43,697 nucleotides of DNA, taken from contig NZ_AZDA01000054.1 of the NCBI RefSeq assembly GCF_001434575.1, positions 1 to 43,697 of the forward strand, in the 5' to 3' direction. Positions within the stretch are counted from its first letter, which is position 1, and each line of letters begins with the position of its first letter. Shown one piece after another: positions 1,952 to 36,959 of the stretch. Both the position numbers and the translations under genes were made by a program. The notes beneath the pieces are model-generated. The model did not search any database. It was not told where the DNA came from and saw only the letters and a list, made by a program, of their open reading frames with translations. The stretch comes from Loigolactobacillus bifermentans DSM 20003 (GTDB taxonomy: Bacteria > Bacillota > Bacilli > Lactobacillales > Lactobacillaceae).

Positions 1952-2157
1952 TAGAACCAAGTCAAATACTTAGCTTCGATGGGAAGATTAGCCTAAACCG
2001 TTTAGCACAGAGAACTTCGTCAGGTGGAAAGAAGTGTAACATTTAGGTGAAGATGAACCTGGAGCCCGATTTTTGGTCAGCTGGCTAAAAATCCGTTTTG
2101 TTAGCGATACATAACAACAACGTATCTCAAATATTATGCAGAAAAGGAGTGAGCCAC

Positions 2158-2223
2158 ATGTTAAATCAAGACTGTTGTTGTCAATTGAATATGAACCACT
2201 CACTTCTAAAATTCAGCCTGTAA
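2158..2223 (+). CDS. Candidate 21-codon leader peptide with Cys-Cys-Cys, inside the T-box leader
   Basis: ATG at 2158 is preceded by AAAAGGAG (2142-2149), 8 nt away, an excellent ribosome binding site. The frame reads MLNQDCCCQLN followed by ten more residues and stops with TAA at 2221. Three consecutive TGT codons (2173-2181) are typical of cysteine-sensing leader peptides. The same bases could instead be structural: GTTGTTGT (2174-2181) is complementary to ACAACAAC (2114-2121), and the SD region GGAGTGAG (2146-2153) can pair with CTCACTTC (2199-2206) with one wobble. These pairings would fit the stem II/III region of a T-box. Translation of the frame is therefore a hypothesis. Confidence 0.45.
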   Translation: MLNQDCCCQLNMNHSLLKFSL

Positions 2224-2344
2224 TGTCATCGTAAGCGTTATTTTCATTAAGTGCTTATTTGTGCGGGCGTCATAATGTCGCGATGCGCTTAATTGAGTTT
2301 AAGTTATCAAGCTTAAAAAAGCTGGGTGGTACCACGTTAATTCG

Positions 2345-2375
2345 TCCCGACATCGTGATCGATGTCGGGATTTTT
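2345..2375 (+). terminator. T-box regulated terminator
   Basis: TCCCGACATC (2345-2354), loop GTGATC, GATGTCGGGA (2361-2370), followed by a T run. It begins about 9 nt after the T-box core and would compete with the antiterminator. Confidence 0.9.
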
Positions 2376-2410: not shown

Positions 2411-2560
2411 CATCATTTTGCGCTTGCAAAATAATCCGTTGTCTTTTAGGAGGCCCATGTGTCCTGCGGGGTGGTTTGACCCCACAAGACTGGTGATCCT
2501 CCGGTAATCACCATTTTGCGCTTGCAAAATAAACATCTGTGCTTTTAGGAGGTTGTTCTT
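2411..2560 (+). promoter_or_regulatory. Duplicated-SD / anti-SD leader element, copy 1
   Basis: Order of parts: hairpin ATTTTGC-GCTT-GCAAAAT (2415-2432); SD1 AGGAGG (2448-2453); hairpin GTCCTGCGGGG...CCCCACAAGAC (2461-2490); anti-SD CCTCC (2498-2502); a second copy of the ATTTTGC hairpin (2513-2530); SD2 AGGAGG (2547-2552), 8 nt before the permease start. SD1 and SD2 are 99 nt apart. CCTCC can pair with either SD1 or SD2, giving two exclusive folds. An ATG 3 nt after SD1 opens a 16-codon frame (2457-2507) that ends just past the anti-SD, but this frame is not kept in the other two copies. Function is inferred only. Confidence 0.6.
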
Positions 2561-3220
2561 ATGAGTTGGAGTGTTGTTCAACAAAGCATTCCCATATTCG
2601 GTCAAGCATTCTGGTTAACCCTAAAATTGTCGTTTTACGGCATTATTGGTGCCAGTATTCTCGGACTGCTCGCCAGTTTTATCCGCTACTTTGAAATGCC
2701 GGTATTACAGCGTATTGCTGGTATGTATATTGAATTATCACGTAACACGCCTTTATTGATTCAGTTATTCTTTATCTACTATGCTTTTCCTGAAATCGGG
2801 ATCAAGCTGTCGGCCCAAACTAGTGGGATCATTGGGCTGATTTTCTTAGGTGGTAGTTATATGGCCGCGGCTTTTACCGGCGGGTTAAACGGGGTTGATA
2901 AGATTCAAGTTGAATCTGGTAAAGCGATTGGTCTGACGAATTGGCAGCTGGCGCGTTACGTGGTGTTGCCCCAAGGGTTGTCACTTAGTGTCCCTGCCAT
3001 TGCTGCTAACGTGATTTTTCTGATTAAGGAAACCTCAATTTTTACCGTCATCGCCATTCCAGAATTAACCAATACCGCATTGGACCAAATCGGGATGTAC
3101 TATCACACAGACGAATCGTTACTGTTGTTAGTCATCGGTTATGCCATTATTTTGATTCCATTATCGATCTTGCTCACTTGGCTGGAAAGGAGGGCTCGTT
3201 ATGGCGCATTCGGGAATTAA
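2561..3220 (+). CDS. Amino-acid ABC transporter permease (His/Glu/Gln/Arg type), subunit 1
   Basis: A 219-residue integral membrane protein of the polar amino-acid uptake family. Several hydrophobic segments are visible from about residue 15 onward, including FWLTLKLSFYGIIGASILGLLASF. The cytoplasmic EAA-type loop follows the family pattern (ESGKAIGLTNWQLARYVVLPQGL, about residues 126-148) and contacts the ATPase. The start is ATG 2561, 8 nt after SD2 of the leader element. The gene is first in a four-gene operon and overlaps the next permease by 20 nt, suggesting translational coupling and a heterodimeric membrane unit. Control lies in the upstream T-box. The substrate is probably a small polar or sulphur amino acid, as judged from the binding protein at 4661. 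Confidence 0.9.
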   Translation: MSWSVVQQSIPIFGQAFWLTLKLSFYGIIGASILGLLASFIRYFEMPVLQRIAGMYIELSRNTPLLIQLFFIYYAFPEIGIKLSAQTSGIIGLIFLGGSYMAAAFTGGLNGVDKIQVESGKAIGLTNWQLARYVVLPQGLSLSVPAIAANVIFLIKETSIFTVIAIPELTNTALDQIGMYYHTDESLLLLVIGYAIILIPLSILLTWLERRARYGAFGN

Positions 3221-21555: not shown

Positions 21556-21870
21556 TTAATCTAAATGAAAGACTTCGTCTAAATCAACGGCAACTGGACT
21601 TTTATCTGGATTGGTATCCATTAAAGGTTCCATGTAAGCCCACCACTTCTTAGCCGCATCTGTTTCGGCAATGGCGTTGTAAGCCGCCACGTCATCAACT
21701 TCTAAATAAGCGAATAGTTGACCTGTTTTTTGATCTAAGAAAATGGAATAGTTATGTGCACCTGCTGCTTTTAAGGCTTGCCGCATTTCTGGAAAAAGGT
21801 TATTGTGCCGTTTTTCATATTCAGCGTAAGCATCTTTGTGCAAGTACATGATTTGACCCATACGTTTCAT
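21556..21870 (-). CDS. rhaM: L-rhamnose mutarotase
   Basis: A 104-residue enzyme that interconverts the alpha and beta anomers of L-rhamnose before isomerisation. Residues aligned with the E. coli active site are at the same positions: Y18, H22 (EYEKRHNN), Y41 (HNYSIF) and W76-W77 (KKWWAYM). Length matches the family (104). The ATG shares its A with the rhaB stop codon (TAATG), so its translation is probably coupled to rhaB. Confidence 0.96.
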
Positions 21871-23345
21871 TAATTCGTGACCTTCTTTCCTTTTTCAAAC
21901 TTTAAGAAATCTTGGTAGCGTTGTAACACAGTGCCATACTTCCCTGTTTCTGGGGTAAAGCGCTTGATCTTAAACGAATCGTTGATCAATTGACGGCCAG
22001 ACGCAATGTCACTGACATCACCTTCAGCAATCATTTGGACCATGATGTTCCCAATGGCCGTTGCCTCATCTGGGCCAGCATACACGTCAATGTTGGCCAA
22101 GGTGCTAGTCATTTGGTTCATCAAGGCCACATTGGACCCACCACCAACGATGTTCAAGGTGTCAATGGCATAGCCTAAAATTTGATCTAACTTGGCTAAT
22201 TCATTGGCGTAGAACAAGGACAGATTACTATAAACGGCCATCATGATCGCGCCAGGTGTATTCGGCACCTTTTGACCTGTTTCACGACAATAGTCTTGAA
22301 TTTCTTGGATCATATCAGTTGGGTTTTCAAACCGTTTCGCATTCACGTCAATAAACTGCTGGAACGGCTTTTCTTTCTCAGCCAACGCGGCCAAGTCCGC
22401 AAAACTATATTTATCGTTGTATTCGCGCTTCACGCACTGTGCGATCCACAAGCCCATGATGTTTTTCAGGAACCGGTAAGTTCCGTAAGCACCCCATTCG
22501 TTGGTGTAATTTTCAGCAAAAGCGGCGGCGCCATTTTCGGGTACGTTTAACTCGGCACCTAACAAGGACCACGTTCCAGAACTGAGGAAGGCCCAATGAT
22601 CGCCGTTGCCAGGCGTCCCAACAACTGCCGAAGCCGTATCATGGGTCGCCACGGTAATGACTTCAGTTTGTGGCAAGTTGTATTCAAGCTGCCACTTATG
22701 GCGAATATTGCCTAAAACCGTCCCTGATTCAACTAAACGTGGGAATTGTTCTTGTGAAACATTGACTTGCTTCAATAAATCTTTATCGAACAAGCCTTCA
22801 CGCAAATTCAACATTTGTGTGGTTGAGGCGTTGGTGACTTCTGTCACAGCATTGCCGGTTAACACATAGCCTAAATAATCGGGCATCATCATGATCTTAT
22901 CGGTTTTTGCCAAATCAGCCTTGTTTTCAGCATATAGCTGATAAAGTGTATTGAAATCCAGGAATTGAATCCCCGTCTTTTTATAAATGTAATCTTTCGG
23001 AAGCTCACTGGTTAATTCAGCGATTGCATCCCGAGTCCGTGCATCTCGATAGCTGATTGGATCTTGTAACTTTTTACCGTCCATGCCGACTAACACATAA
23101 TCGACAGCCCAGGTATCAATCCCTAAGCGGACTTCATCATAGCCCGCGGCCTTGATTTTTTCTAAACCTGTAAAAATTTCATTCACTAAATGATCGACGT
23201 TCCACCGATCATGTTGGTTTTCACGGGTAAAGCCATTTTTAAAGCGGTGCATTTCTTGTAGTTTCAACTTGCCAGCTTGAATTTCAGCCAACATCAGCCG
23301 CCCACTTGAAGCACCGATATCAACAGCTACATATGCTTTTGCCAT
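21870..23345 (-). CDS. rhaB: Rhamnulokinase
   Basis: A 491-residue FGGY-family kinase that phosphorylates L-rhamnulose with ATP. ATG 23345 ([16 protein letters not shown]) is chosen because it is 8 nt from a GAGGTGG site and matches the family start; the frame extends four codons upstream. Motifs: phosphate-1 loop [32 protein letters not shown], the sugar-kinase [10 protein letters not shown], and adenosine-binding [15 protein letters not shown]. The leader before the start contains the duplicated-SD element, copy 3. The gene is between the MFS carrier and rhaM. Confidence 0.96.
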
Positions 23346-23492
23346 CAGTAAAACCACCTCAATTCTCCAATGTAACTTTGCTCCCGCAAAGGTTTGATCT
23401 CCGGTGGATGTCCATTCCCTCGGACGAAAATCATCACGAGGGAAACATGGCCCACCTCAATTCTCTAATGTATCTTTGCTATCGCAAAAGTT
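23346..23492 (-). promoter_or_regulatory. Duplicated-SD / anti-SD leader element, copy 3
   Basis: Located between the MFS stop and the rhaB start. On the minus strand: hairpin TTTGC-GATA-GCAAA (23488-23475), SD1 AGGTGG (23457-23452), hairpin TTCCCTCG...CGAGGGAA, anti-SD CCACC (23407-23403), hairpin TTTGC-GGGA-GCAAA (23390-23377), SD2 AGGTGG (23359-23354), then 8 nt to ATG. The SDs are 98 nt apart and the middle hairpin block is 30 nt, as in the other copies. Both SDs and the anti-SD differ from the other copies by matching changes (GGAGG to GGTGG, CCTCC to CCACC). An ATG after SD1 opens a four-codon frame only (23448-23434). Confidence 0.6.
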
Positions 23493-24770
23493 TTATTGCT
23501 TTTCACTGTACTTATCGCCGTAACGTTCCCGGGTAATTTCATCCAAGGACTTGCCGCGTGTTTGTGGTGTCCAAATCGTCCCGATCACTAATGAAATAAT
23601 CAGTAAGACGATCATGAACATCCCAGCCGCTTTAAAGCCCATTGTGGATAGGATCGTTGGGAAGATAATCGACCAGATCCCAGCAGAGCCCCGAACGACG
23701 AAGAACATGACACCTTGAGAACCGGCACGATACTTGGTTGGGAACAATTCTGTCGCCCATAAAGCGTACCAAGCTTGCGCACCGATACCAGCTGAAACAC
23801 CCCACAAAATAACGAAGATCCATAAGCTGGTCCAATTCATACCAGAGAATGTTAAGACGATCCATGAAGCTGCTGCCATTGCTGCACCGACGAAGAAGAA
23901 AATCCGATGGTTGGCGCGATCGCCATACTTGGCAAATCCAAAGTAAGTGGCAACTGCAGTGAAGATCCATAATACGGCTTGTAACAAGTTAGCTTGTTGG
24001 TTGGTTAAACCACCGGCCGTTTCATACACATATGGCATGAAGAAGCCCATGGCACCGGCAACTAAGTTCCAGAACATGTAAACCCCGATCAAGAATAACA
24101 ACGATTTTACACTAATTGCACTTGAGAATAAGTCTTTGTAAGGATGCGGCTTTTCGCCAGAAGCTTTTTCCTGCTTCTTTTGTTCAACCCATTCTTCTGA
24201 TTCATGCAACCCACGTTGTAAGTTCCAAGCAATGAAGGCAATGACGGTTAACAATCCGAACATTAAGCGACTGCCTAACAAACCAAGTGGTGCTAACACA
24301 ACCCCTAAGATAAAGATAATAGCTGGTCCCATTGACCAAGCAAATTGGGAGATCCCAATATTCTCAGTCCGGTTAGTACTACCCGAAGTTTCGGAAATAT
24401 AAGTCCAAGAAGCAGGCACCCCGGCCCCAACGGCAATCCCAGTAATCAGGAACCCGGCTAATAACATAGCGAAGTTCACTGAAAGGGCGACGATAATCGT
24501 GCCTAACATGTAGATCAACATATCATAGGTGTAAATTACTTTACGCCCATATTTATCTGAAAGGTGACCACCAAACAATGCCCCAATGGCGGCCCCGAAT
24601 GCGTTTGCACTCAATGCACCAAGTAGTCCGACTTGGAAACTGCTTAAACCTAAGGCTTTCGTCCAAAGTGTCAAACCACTGGCACCGGCGACAATCGAGC
24701 CTGAATCTAGAAAGTTTGTTAAAGAAACGGCAAAGGTTGATTTCTTAGAGCCTTGTGCTTTTTCTGCCAT
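23493..24770 (-). CDS. MFS sugar transporter, probable rhamnose permease
   Basis: A 425-residue major facilitator with 12 predicted membrane segments. The conserved loop between helices 2 and 3, GGHLSDKYGRKVIYT, matches the MFS GxxxDrxGRR motif. The C-terminal half has the sugar-porter-like ELFPTKYRAGSQG before helix 10-11 and PQTRGKSLDEI at the C-terminus, both typical of the sugar porter family. As first gene of the rhamnose operon it probably imports L-rhamnose by proton symport. A near-consensus cre site lies just upstream. The substrate is inferred from the operon. Confidence 0.88.
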   Translation of the reverse strand: MAEKAQGSKKSTFAVSLTNFLDSGSIVAGASGLTLWTKALGLSSFQVGLLGALSANAFGAAIGALFGGHLSDKYGRKVIYTYDMLIYMLGTIIVALSVNFAMLLAGFLITGIAVGAGVPASWTYISETSGSTNRTENIGISQFAWSMGPAIIFILGVVLAPLGLLGSRLMFGLLTVIAFIAWNLQRGLHESEEWVEQKKQEKASGEKPHPYKDLFSSAISVKSLLFLIGVYMFWNLVAGAMGFFMPYVYETAGGLTNQQANLLQAVLWIFTAVATYFGFAKYGDRANHRIFFFVGAAMAAASWIVLTFSGMNWTSLWIFVILWGVSAGIGAQAWYALWATELFPTKYRAGSQGVMFFVVRGSAGIWSIIFPTILSTMGFKAAGMFMIVLLIISLVIGTIWTPQTRGKSLDEITRERYGDKYSEKQ

Positions 24771-33620: not shown

Positions 33621-34835
33621 TTAGATTACGTGTAATTCGTGATGGAATTTTTCTTGTTTCGTCGCTAAGTAGTCACGGTTCTCTTGGCGTGGTGCAACCT
33701 CTAACGGCACCCGTTCAACTACCTTGATGCCGAAATATTCTAACCGTGCGACTTTATCTGGATTGTTGGTCAATAAACGAATTTGGTGAATGCCTTGTGC
33801 ATGTAAAATGGCAGCCGCAATCCCATAATCCCGTTGATCAGGCGCAAACCCTAATTTTTCGTTGGCTTCAACGGTGTCCAAGCCGCCTTCTTGTAAATGA
33901 TAAGCGGCAATTTTAGCCTTTAAGCCAATGCCACGGCCTTCTTGCCGCAAGTAAACCAATAAACCAGCTGGCGCTTGGGCGACTTCACTAAGCGCTTGAT
34001 GCAATTGTTCTCCACAGTCACAGCGATGCGACCCAAACACATCCCCCGTTAAGCATTCAGAATGTAGCCGAACCAAAGGGACGTCAGCATTGGCAACATC
34101 CCCATGGGCTAATGCCAATTGCAGGCGGTTATCGGCTGTGCTGGTATAATCAGTTAATTCAAATTCGCCATATTCAGTTGGCAATTTCACTGTATTTTCC
34201 GCACGAACCGCATCAATATTGTGACGATAGCGGTAATTGATCAATTCTTCAACTGTGATCAACGGAATCTCCAGTTTAGCCGCCAATTCTTCTAATTCTG
34301 CAAAACGATTCATATGGCCATCTGGTTTTAACGTCTCACAAATGTAAGCTACTGGTGCTGCCCCTGCCATAGTGGCTAAATCAACGGCTGCTTCCGTGTG
34401 CCCATCACGAACCAAAACCCCGCCATCAACGGCAATCAACGGGAACATATGGCCTGGATGTTCAAAATCATCTGGTTTTGCATTGGTGTCACTTAACGCC
34501 TTGATCGTTGTGGCACGGTCATAAGCTGAGATCCCAGTTGTGGTAGTCACGTGATCCGTACTAACGGTAAAAGCAGTGGCATAAGTTTCAGTATTGTGAT
34601 CGGTCATTAAATGCATATTCAATGCCTTGGCGCGTTCTGCGGTCATCGGCGCACAAACCAGCCCACGCCCATAAGTCACCATCGTATTGACACTTTCAGG
34701 CGTTGCATATTCCGCAATTCCTAAAAAGTCCCCTTCTGCTTCACGATTCCGATCATCAGAAACTAAAATTAACCCACCTGACTTTAATTGTTTGATAGCG
34801 CCTTCAATTGCCTGATCTACTACTTGTTCGTCCAT
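33621..34835 (-). CDS. ribBA: Bifunctional 3,4-dihydroxybutanone-4-phosphate synthase / GTP cyclohydrolase II
   Basis: A 404-residue fusion. The N-terminal domain (about 1-200) makes 3,4-dihydroxybutanone 4-phosphate from ribulose 5-phosphate: DDRNREAEGDFL with acidic metal ligands, and RDGHTEAAVDL. The C-terminal domain (about 205-400) is GTP cyclohydrolase II with the zinc site CLTGDVFGSHRCDCGEQL, and RQEGRGIGL. Both active sites look complete. ATG 34835 is 7 nt from SD2 of the duplicated-SD element, copy 2, which fills the 133-nt gap after ribE. Confidence 0.97.
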   Translation of the reverse strand: MDEQVVDQAIEGAIKQLKSGGLILVSDDRNREAEGDFLGIAEYATPESVNTMVTYGRGLVCAPMTAERAKALNMHLMTDHNTETYATAFTVSTDHVTTTTGISAYDRATTIKALSDTNAKPDDFEHPGHMFPLIAVDGGVLVRDGHTEAAVDLATMAGAAPVAYICETLKPDGHMNRFAELEELAAKLEIPLITVEELINYRYRHNIDAVRAENTVKLPTEYGEFELTDYTSTADNRLQLALAHGDVANADVPLVRLHSECLTGDVFGSHRCDCGEQLHQALSEVAQAPAGLLVYLRQEGRGIGLKAKIAAYHLQEGGLDTVEANEKLGFAPDQRDYGIAAAILHAQGIHQIRLLTNNPDKVARLEYFGIKVVERVPLEVAPRQENRDYLATKQEKFHHELHVI

Positions 34836-34968
34836 GATGAAACCTCCTAAATACTCTAATGTCTATTTTGCTATCGCAAAAATCTTATTTCCGGAGGATG
34901 TCCAGTCTTGTGGGGGCAGTTCACCCCGCAGGACGTATGGCTCCTCTATATTTGGATTATTCTAATTG
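34836..34968 (-). promoter_or_regulatory. Duplicated-SD / anti-SD leader element, copy 2
   Basis: Between ribE and ribBA. On the minus strand: SD1 GAGGAG (34946-34941), hairpin GTCCTGCGGGG...CCCCACAAGAC, anti-SD CCTCC (34897-34893), hairpin TTTTGC-GATA-GCAAAA (34881-34866), SD2 AGGAGG (34848-34843), then 7 nt to ATG. SD spacing is 97 nt. The first TTTTGC hairpin seen in the other copies is missing, and the ATG after SD1 is ATA here, so no small frame is conserved. Confidence 0.6.
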
Positions 34969-36705: not shown

Positions 36706-36778
36706 CGAATTGTTTTAGTTTGAAGTAGACTTGTAGGTCTCCTGACACGACGCCAAAAAAACTGGCGCTGTATCAACT

Positions 36779-36903
36779 CTTCTCCCATCCAGACTTTAAC
36801 TGTCGGTTGCAGATTCGCACTGCATCAGCCGCAAAAATTGCGGGTCACGGACTTCAGTCATGATGACTGTTACCGTCGGTCAGGAATTTCACCTTGCCCC
36901 GAA
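36779..36903 (-). promoter_or_regulatory. FMN riboswitch (RFN element)
   Basis: On the minus strand the aptamer shows the conserved RFN blocks: GGGGCAAGGTGAAATTCC (near 36900), GACCGACGGTAAC, GGCTGATGCAGTGCGAATC, CCGACAGTTAAAGTCTGGATG and GGGAGAAG. FMN binding favours the terminator at 36675-36705 and stops transcription of the rib operon. The terminator position indicates transcriptional control. Confidence 0.96.
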
Positions 36904-36959
36904 GAAATGATTGATTCAACTTGGCTTAACTATAAACACAGCCGAAACCGCTGTCAAGT

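Follow-up and report, generated by a model that had tools for sequence, protein, structure and literature searches.

The window analyzed here is a 43,697-nt stretch of the Loigolactobacillus bifermentans DSM 20003 genome (NZ_AZDA01000054.1), in which the sequences preceding three start codons follow a common plan. This plan had been described in an earlier note at positions 2411-2560, 23346-23492, and 34836-34968, and it is confirmed in all three copies. Two Shine-Dalgarno (SD) sequences, SD1 and SD2, begin at positions 2448 and 2547 of the forward strand in copy 1, and at 23457 and 23359 (copy 2) and 34946 and 34848 (copy 3) of the reverse strand, and are therefore 98-99 nt apart, close to the 97-99 nt given in that note.

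Each copy contains a complete C-R unit, in which a hairpin termed C is followed by an anti-SD, a hairpin termed R, and an SD. The unit of copy 1 (2454-2552, forward strand) was identified both with a covariance model (match 2441-2552, 100.7 bits) and with nhmmer, and its C hairpin precedes the anti-SD CCTCC (2498-2502), the R hairpin (2514-2529), SD2 with the sequence AGGAGG (2547-2552), and a start codon at 2561. To its left lies an additional R segment (2413-2453; exact pattern match 2416-2453, nhmmer match 2413-2453), composed of the hairpin TTTTGC-GCTT-GCAAAA (2416-2431), a spacer, and SD1, AGGAGG (2448-2453). Copy 2, on the reverse strand, holds its unit at 23354-23451 (covariance model match 23354-23464, 99.8 bits; also nhmmer), with a C hairpin, the anti-SD CCACC (23407-23403), the R hairpin (23391-23376), and SD2 AGGTGG (23359-23354), followed by an ATG at 23345-23343. 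Its left R segment (23452-23497, reverse strand; nhmmer match 23497-23452) starts at the stop codon of an upstream transporter gene and carries a hairpin (23490-23474) and SD1 AGGTGG (23457-23452). Copy 3, also on the reverse strand, is a single C-R unit (34843-34947; covariance model match 34843-34954, 119.9 bits) with SD1 GAGGAG (34946-34941), anti-SD CCTCC (34897-34893), R hairpin (34881-34866), and SD2 AGGAGG (34848-34843), ahead of the ribBA ATG at 34835-34833. Thus, copies 1 and 2 read R-C-R, with the extra hairpin-SD segment on the left, where copy 3 has GAGGAG only. The SD AGGTGG and anti-SD CCACC of copy 2 constitute a compensatory pair already within the window.

The genes behind the three copies are indeed unrelated, as the note had stated, although its assignments (amino-acid permease, rhaB, and ribBA) are revised by Pfam to an ABC-transporter permease (BPD_transp_1; 2561-3220, forward strand), an FGGY-family sugar kinase (21870-23345, reverse strand), and RibBA, comprising DHBP synthase and GTP cyclohydrolase II (33621-34835, reverse strand). 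Copies 2 and 3 lie between same-strand genes and occupy most of each gap. No Rfam 15 family was credibly detected at the elements of the window with either gathering or relaxed thresholds, nor at the elements in eight related loci. A T-box leader match (1967-2352, forward strand; 60.7 bits, under the gathering score of 93) is located just upstream of copy 1, and that leader thus seems to combine a T-box with the repeat. An FMN riboswitch is present at 36773-36910 (reverse strand), near riboflavin genes.

A family of short repeats

The three leaders are members of a short-repeat family that comprises approximately 150 units distributed over about 80 sites in the L. bifermentans genome. With a 154-base query from copy 1, blastn returned 54 matches in this genome (E ≤ 1). 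A covariance model derived from 67 aligned units returned at least 150 matches at E ≤ 0.01, which are all 150 of the candidates scored from among 1021 first-look candidates. Given these numbers, the three leaders are not a chance resemblance. With nhmmer, 161 matches, partial ones included, were found in 84 groups of one to five within 242 kb of DNA from the same genome; exclusion of weak groups (best score below 30) and two antisense matches leaves the 78 arrays on which the counts below are based.

The unit is approximately 98 nt in length and frequently occurs in tandem. Hairpin C falls into two main classes, both of which may occur within one array, and an array in genome G006 contains seven strong matches plus a weak partial one. 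Among 79 exact matches to the R pattern in the L. bifermentans genome, 72 lie directly behind a C hairpin and four are left R segments of arrays; of the remainder, one is interrupted where its contig stops and two have no C in view, one of these two falling outside the 242 kb scanned. One array is perhaps split between the contig ends C45:37102 and C122:1 (G000), raising the possibility that the repeats break the assembly. Foreign sequence, apparently from other repeats, is found inside units at L293 (G006) and L084/L098 (G003), and a group II intron match (L239:1081-1151) is situated a short distance upstream of a G005 array.

Placement at ribosome-binding sites

By a strict rule, the ATG of an open reading frame of at least 100 codons lies 4-13 nt after the last SD in 48 of the 78 arrays, versus 129 of 20,000 random window positions (0.6%). 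By a loose rule, an open reading frame follows 61 of the 78 arrays versus 23% of random window positions. Similarly, in two further species a start codon occurs 1-10 nt behind the SD in all 26 arrays examined, which derive from the better-scoring matches listed and exclude one array at a contig edge. The host genes are unrelated and include, in addition to those assigned by Pfam in the window, genes recognized by reading as FabF-, PlsX-, and ParE/ParC-like. For 23 of the 61 gene-bearing arrays, a same-strand open frame of at least 100 codons ends within 60 nt upstream, and these arrays are probably located inside operons.

The left boundary of the arrays is likewise associated with an SD. Among the 62 arrays whose first unit is complete (16 with a truncated first unit were excluded), a gene follows 44 of the 46 in which that unit starts at an SD-like motif, versus 3 of the other 16 (P = 6e-9). 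When five copies of a single insertion, described below, are counted once, the numbers with and without a gene become 44/2 versus 3/9 (P = 1e-6). Of the two arrays among the 46 that have no gene by this rule, one runs off its contig and the other precedes a seemingly broken frame. On a plain reading, the left SD is the original one of the gene and the right SD arrived with the unit. Part of the preference for SDs could come from selection instead of target choice.

The sequence AGCTGG does not constitute an SD. It is found at the end of 18 of 77 internal units and of none of the 61 gene-bearing arrays (P = 1.3e-5); among the 17 arrays that lack a gene, 3 end in it. This distribution indicates that the final SD is retained ahead of a gene, and that inner SDs need only match their anti-SD.

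Pairing between the anti-SD and the SD of its own unit

For 124 units of the L. bifermentans genome, the complementarity score of the anti-SD with the SD of its own unit (SD2) is 1702.5, versus 1431 ± 23 after permutation (highest value in 300 permutations, 1501), placing the observed match 12 standard deviations above permutation. The corresponding score with SD1 is 1475.5 versus 1378 ± 27 (highest 1455.5), which is much weaker yet exceeds all 300 permutations. Where the two differ clearly (41 units), SD2 is favored in 37 and SD1 in 4. The anti-SD/SD pair states include CCTCC/GGAGG, CCAGC/GCTGG, CCTTC/GAAGG, GCACC/GGTGC, and CCGGC/GCCGG. In alignment A2, 97.3% of cells in the anti-SD/SD2 helix are paired, with two-sided changes at three of its five pairs, and these changes are not independent events, since related copies share history. 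For SD1/anti-SD, 67.5% of cells are paired, a figure that is too low owing to the lack of register of SD1 in this alignment.

The earlier note had argued that the anti-SD can pair with either SD but not with both, as in a translational switch. Pairing with SD2 is borne out by these results, whereas SD1 is the weaker partner and is often AGCTGG or missing, and its pairing with the anti-SD is lost in mixed arrays. A two-state SD1/anti-SD/SD2 switch therefore cannot be the general rule and was set aside. An outcome in which only three copies existed, or in which many copies lacked compensatory changes and a preference for start codons, had been named as grounds for abandoning the proposed element altogether; instead, the copies are many and both traits are present.

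In predicted minimum free energy folds of lone units, the anti-SD pairs with SD1 in five of six, copy 1 differing. When whole arrays were folded, the last SD had a mean predicted unpaired probability of 0.37 (57 arrays), compared with 0.20 for internal SDs (63) and 0.35 for the first SD. As the last and first SDs are similarly exposed, folding alone shows no specially free gene SD. RNAalifold yielded few pairs (12 and 8), and the named structures were therefore counted instead.

Distribution and comparison of occupied and empty loci

A model-based search of Lactobacillaceae, of the kind suggested in the earlier note, recovered related units beyond the genome of origin. Model R1 matches all eight Loigolactobacillus genomes and none of 33 genomes of other genera. 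The cross-genus model R2 was applied to 397 Lactobacillaceae genomes with strict filters that leave G001 unmatched, and it detects related units in 15 of them, which represent 4 of the 40 genera. Carriers identified by a pattern scan are L. iwatensis, L. backii, L. jiayinensis, L. zhaoyuanensis, L. binensis, Pediococcus damnosus, P. parvulus, and P. ethanolidurans. Units of the AGGAGG type occur in L. bifermentans, G006, and G007. Much of the family in G002-G005 is of a related type with the tail GGAGTAG, with SD-type units also present in G003 and G004, and solely the related type was found at the two G001 loci read with their flanks. In G002-G005, the GGAGTAG tail is located some nucleotides upstream of the gene's own SD, which counts against the explanation favored below. 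The pattern-scan matches in Pediococcus belong to the related type, and SD-type arrays were obtained for this genus in a separate search (5, 20, and 15 matches). Units from this genus have no CCTCC, and the arrays seen still end in GGAG ahead of a start codon at most of the loci displayed. Carriage on plasmids or phages was rejected, as queries with one L. bifermentans unit gave no blastn match in either and one Pediococcus unit gave none in plasmids.

Host genes and copy number vary between species. Of the 17 gene families behind arrays in G006 and G007, one is closely matched (72% identity) by any of 64 such genes of L. bifermentans, and nine array loci are common to G006 and G007 in the sample. 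Between these close relatives, one locus has one unit in G006 versus zero (R alone) in G007, and another has five versus three. Before ribBA, no unit was found in the stretch inspected for any of five orthologues, and two genomes gave no ribBA match. The guaB gene is present in eight of nine genomes searched; its leader is short and bare in G011 (Pediococcus), as well as in G067 and G194 (another genus), and in the other five Pediococcus it contains R-like sequence without C (two genomes), one unit (one genome), or two units (two genomes). One of the two-unit leaders, that of P. parvulus guaB (L202, L256), has a related element nested in the antisense direction within one of its units.

Another repeat family (CTGCATTATGGCGCACGTTAGAGG...; L141-L159) occurs in at least 13 places of the L. 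bifermentans genome, of which eight are uninterrupted and five hold exactly one unit. By eye, no more than 1 nt is duplicated at this insertion, which lies after CAGAT and not after an SD, and thus counts against entry at SDs. Copies of this one insertion make up five of the 13 arrays that have neither a left SD nor a gene. Elsewhere, left R segments often carry the locus-specific letters of the right R over some 17-51 nt (by eye), a feature that is unexplained by simple insertion of a C-R unit and that suggests local duplication or conversion in addition to insertion.

Origin of the arrays

We consider it likely that the family is a short non-coding dispersed repeat that settles at SD sequences, restores the SD, and forms arrays that grow by whole units, with a fold that may tune translation. 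A small mobile repeat carrying an SD was the last-listed option of the earlier note, and it is the one that the copy number, the placement, and the SD on both sides favor. These three features are observed directly, as are the covariation and the presence or absence of whole units. New copies would enter at SD sequences, through target choice or microhomology, and such entry would be the cause of their position. Since an SD closes each unit, the gene that follows would keep a ribosome-binding site, such that many kinds of genes could be colonized with translation preserved. Once present, an array of the form R(CR)n would grow and shrink by whole units. In the mRNA, the anti-SD would be expected to pair with the SD that ends its own unit or, if matched, with the preceding SD, and might in this way modulate exposure of the gene's SD and hence its translation. 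The covariation itself fits folding of RNA or of single-stranded DNA alike and cannot tell them apart. More tentatively, the ribosome-binding site could be both target and cargo, in that a mobile element might recognize GGAG, enter, restore the SD, and bring a matched anti-SD, thereby distributing a prefabricated module of translational control among dozens of unrelated genes; the SD may then double as a REP-like single-stranded DNA tag.

An account without transposition would treat R as an old leader hairpin and have C modules gained, lost, or exchanged only by recombination or slippage between the R (or SD) repeats of R(CR)n. The locus-specific R on both sides of C, the differences of zero versus one and five versus three units between close relatives, and the R-like sequence that two Pediococcus carry at guaB with no accompanying C are all consistent with this account. 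It is nevertheless unlikely to suffice, given that R without C is rare in the L. bifermentans genome, that a unit without any left R resides inside the CTGCATTATGGCGCACGTTAGAGG family, and that a plain SD precedes many first units.

Slightly less likely is a REP-type element moved by a RAYT, in which a tag tetranucleotide (GGAG or GTAG) adjoins an imperfect hairpin and SDs are favored as look-alikes of the tag. GGAG in the SD type, or GTAG within the GGAGTAG tail of G002-G005, does stand directly before hairpin C, and conserved stem mismatches are also reported for E. coli REPs (PMC8266576). However, the tag pattern does not hold in G001, one insertion follows CAGAT, and a 98-nt unit with two hairpins, in tandem and in a single orientation, is not of REP form. 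The Y1_Tnp gene is also inconsistent among carriers, with profile matches in just two of eight Loigolactobacillus genomes and two of eight other carriers, and a RAYT/IS200 transposase, not found in most carriers, was rejected as the common mobilizing agent. The Y1_Tnp genes of L. bifermentans (G000:C119:54660-55017 and C85:82752-82964) look broken, one being split over two frames and one containing stops.

A dedicated cis-regulatory RNA, whether riboswitch-like or a protein-bound translational switch, with a regulon and with tandem copies providing cooperativity, could account for the conserved SD-sequestering helix with its compensatory changes, the retention of the last SD where a gene follows, and the probable location of arrays within operons (23 of 61). 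We judge this improbable, as the host genes are unrelated and hardly common to species (1 of 17 gene families), SD1/anti-SD pairing is lost in mixed arrays, and CCTCC is missing from Pediococcus units. That every internal SD serves as a decoy ribosome site, a possibility raised in the earlier note, or else as the start of a leader peptide is very hard to credit: SD-GCC-ATG is common in L. bifermentans units (the ATG is present in 119 of 125 full ones), and 34 of these run 17 codons, some longer, but a stop occurs 4-6 codons after the ATG in 52 of the 125, the ATG is found in 0 of 15 Pediococcus units, and decay to AGCTGG is seen among internal SDs.

The usual view of small bacterial repeats is that they persist by causing little disruption. 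The present family is located where translation of a gene is most sensitive to change, and it seems to persist by supplying a substitute for whatever it disrupts. If the repeat does tune translation, it would show in nature how a single portable leader can rewire many genes, including through copy-number changes between close species. The family offers ready before/after pairs for measuring the effects of leaders on translation.

Comparison with known systems

As far as our searches of open-access PMC papers go, a repeat with a restored SD and a matched anti-SD is undescribed, and no description of the family appeared among the papers listed. MITEs are defined by inverted repeats at their termini and by duplication of a fixed length of target sequence. 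The unit ends found here, GCC and AGGAGG, are not inverted repeats, and the duplication varies, being at most 1 nt at the clear insertion and about 17-51 nt elsewhere (by eye), and the family was not classed with MITEs. Translational attenuators such as ermC possess an SD-masking helix with an alternative upstream partner and a conserved translated leader peptide. The first two features have counterparts in the repeat. In contrast, its hosts are many and unrelated and it has no conserved leader peptide, as the early stops and the missing ATG in Pediococcus indicate, and the attenuator assignment was likewise rejected.

The nearest known kinds are BOX, REP, and TAACTGA repeats. BOX elements of Streptococcus pneumoniae are small interspersed modular repeats with a variable number of inner modules and a predicted stem-loop RNA, and are judged parasitic by their authors; one sits between two T-boxes in a leader, in a manner reminiscent of copy 1, which follows a T-box (PMC3049150, in the part available). 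The likeness extends to small size, dispersal, and modularity. By the description in that part, however, BOX elements follow a boxA-boxB(n)-boxC plan with distinct end modules, whereas the C-R units are joined head to tail with none, and neither a restored SD nor start-codon placement figures there (PMC3049150); the family was set apart from BOX on this basis. REPs are high-copy imperfect palindromes of 20-50 nt that follow a short tag, and their orientation alternates in BIMEs (PMC8266576, PMC3733652, PMC2817692). The present family resembles them in copy number and in having imperfect palindromes, which may likewise be preceded by a short tag. The REP tag is mostly GTAG, and GGAG or GTAG precedes the hairpin in most units seen here, GGAG being an SD as well. 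The family differs in its 98-nt length, its two hairpins, its tandem arrangement in one orientation, and its location mostly ahead of a gene; on size, orientation, and the patchy occurrence of Y1_Tnp noted above, it was not assigned to REP/BIME.

The TAACTGA direct repeats of marine Beggiatoaceae are heptamers that immediately precede start codons, for the most part in a single orientation, with no pattern of gene function and a patchy distribution, and a translational role has been proposed for them (PMC4679880). The family shares their single orientation, their position upstream of start codons, their indifference to gene function, and their patchiness. Of the heptamer sets, 132 of 170 face a start codon without a ribosome-binding site (PMC4679880), whereas the unit described here brings an SD and two hairpins with it.
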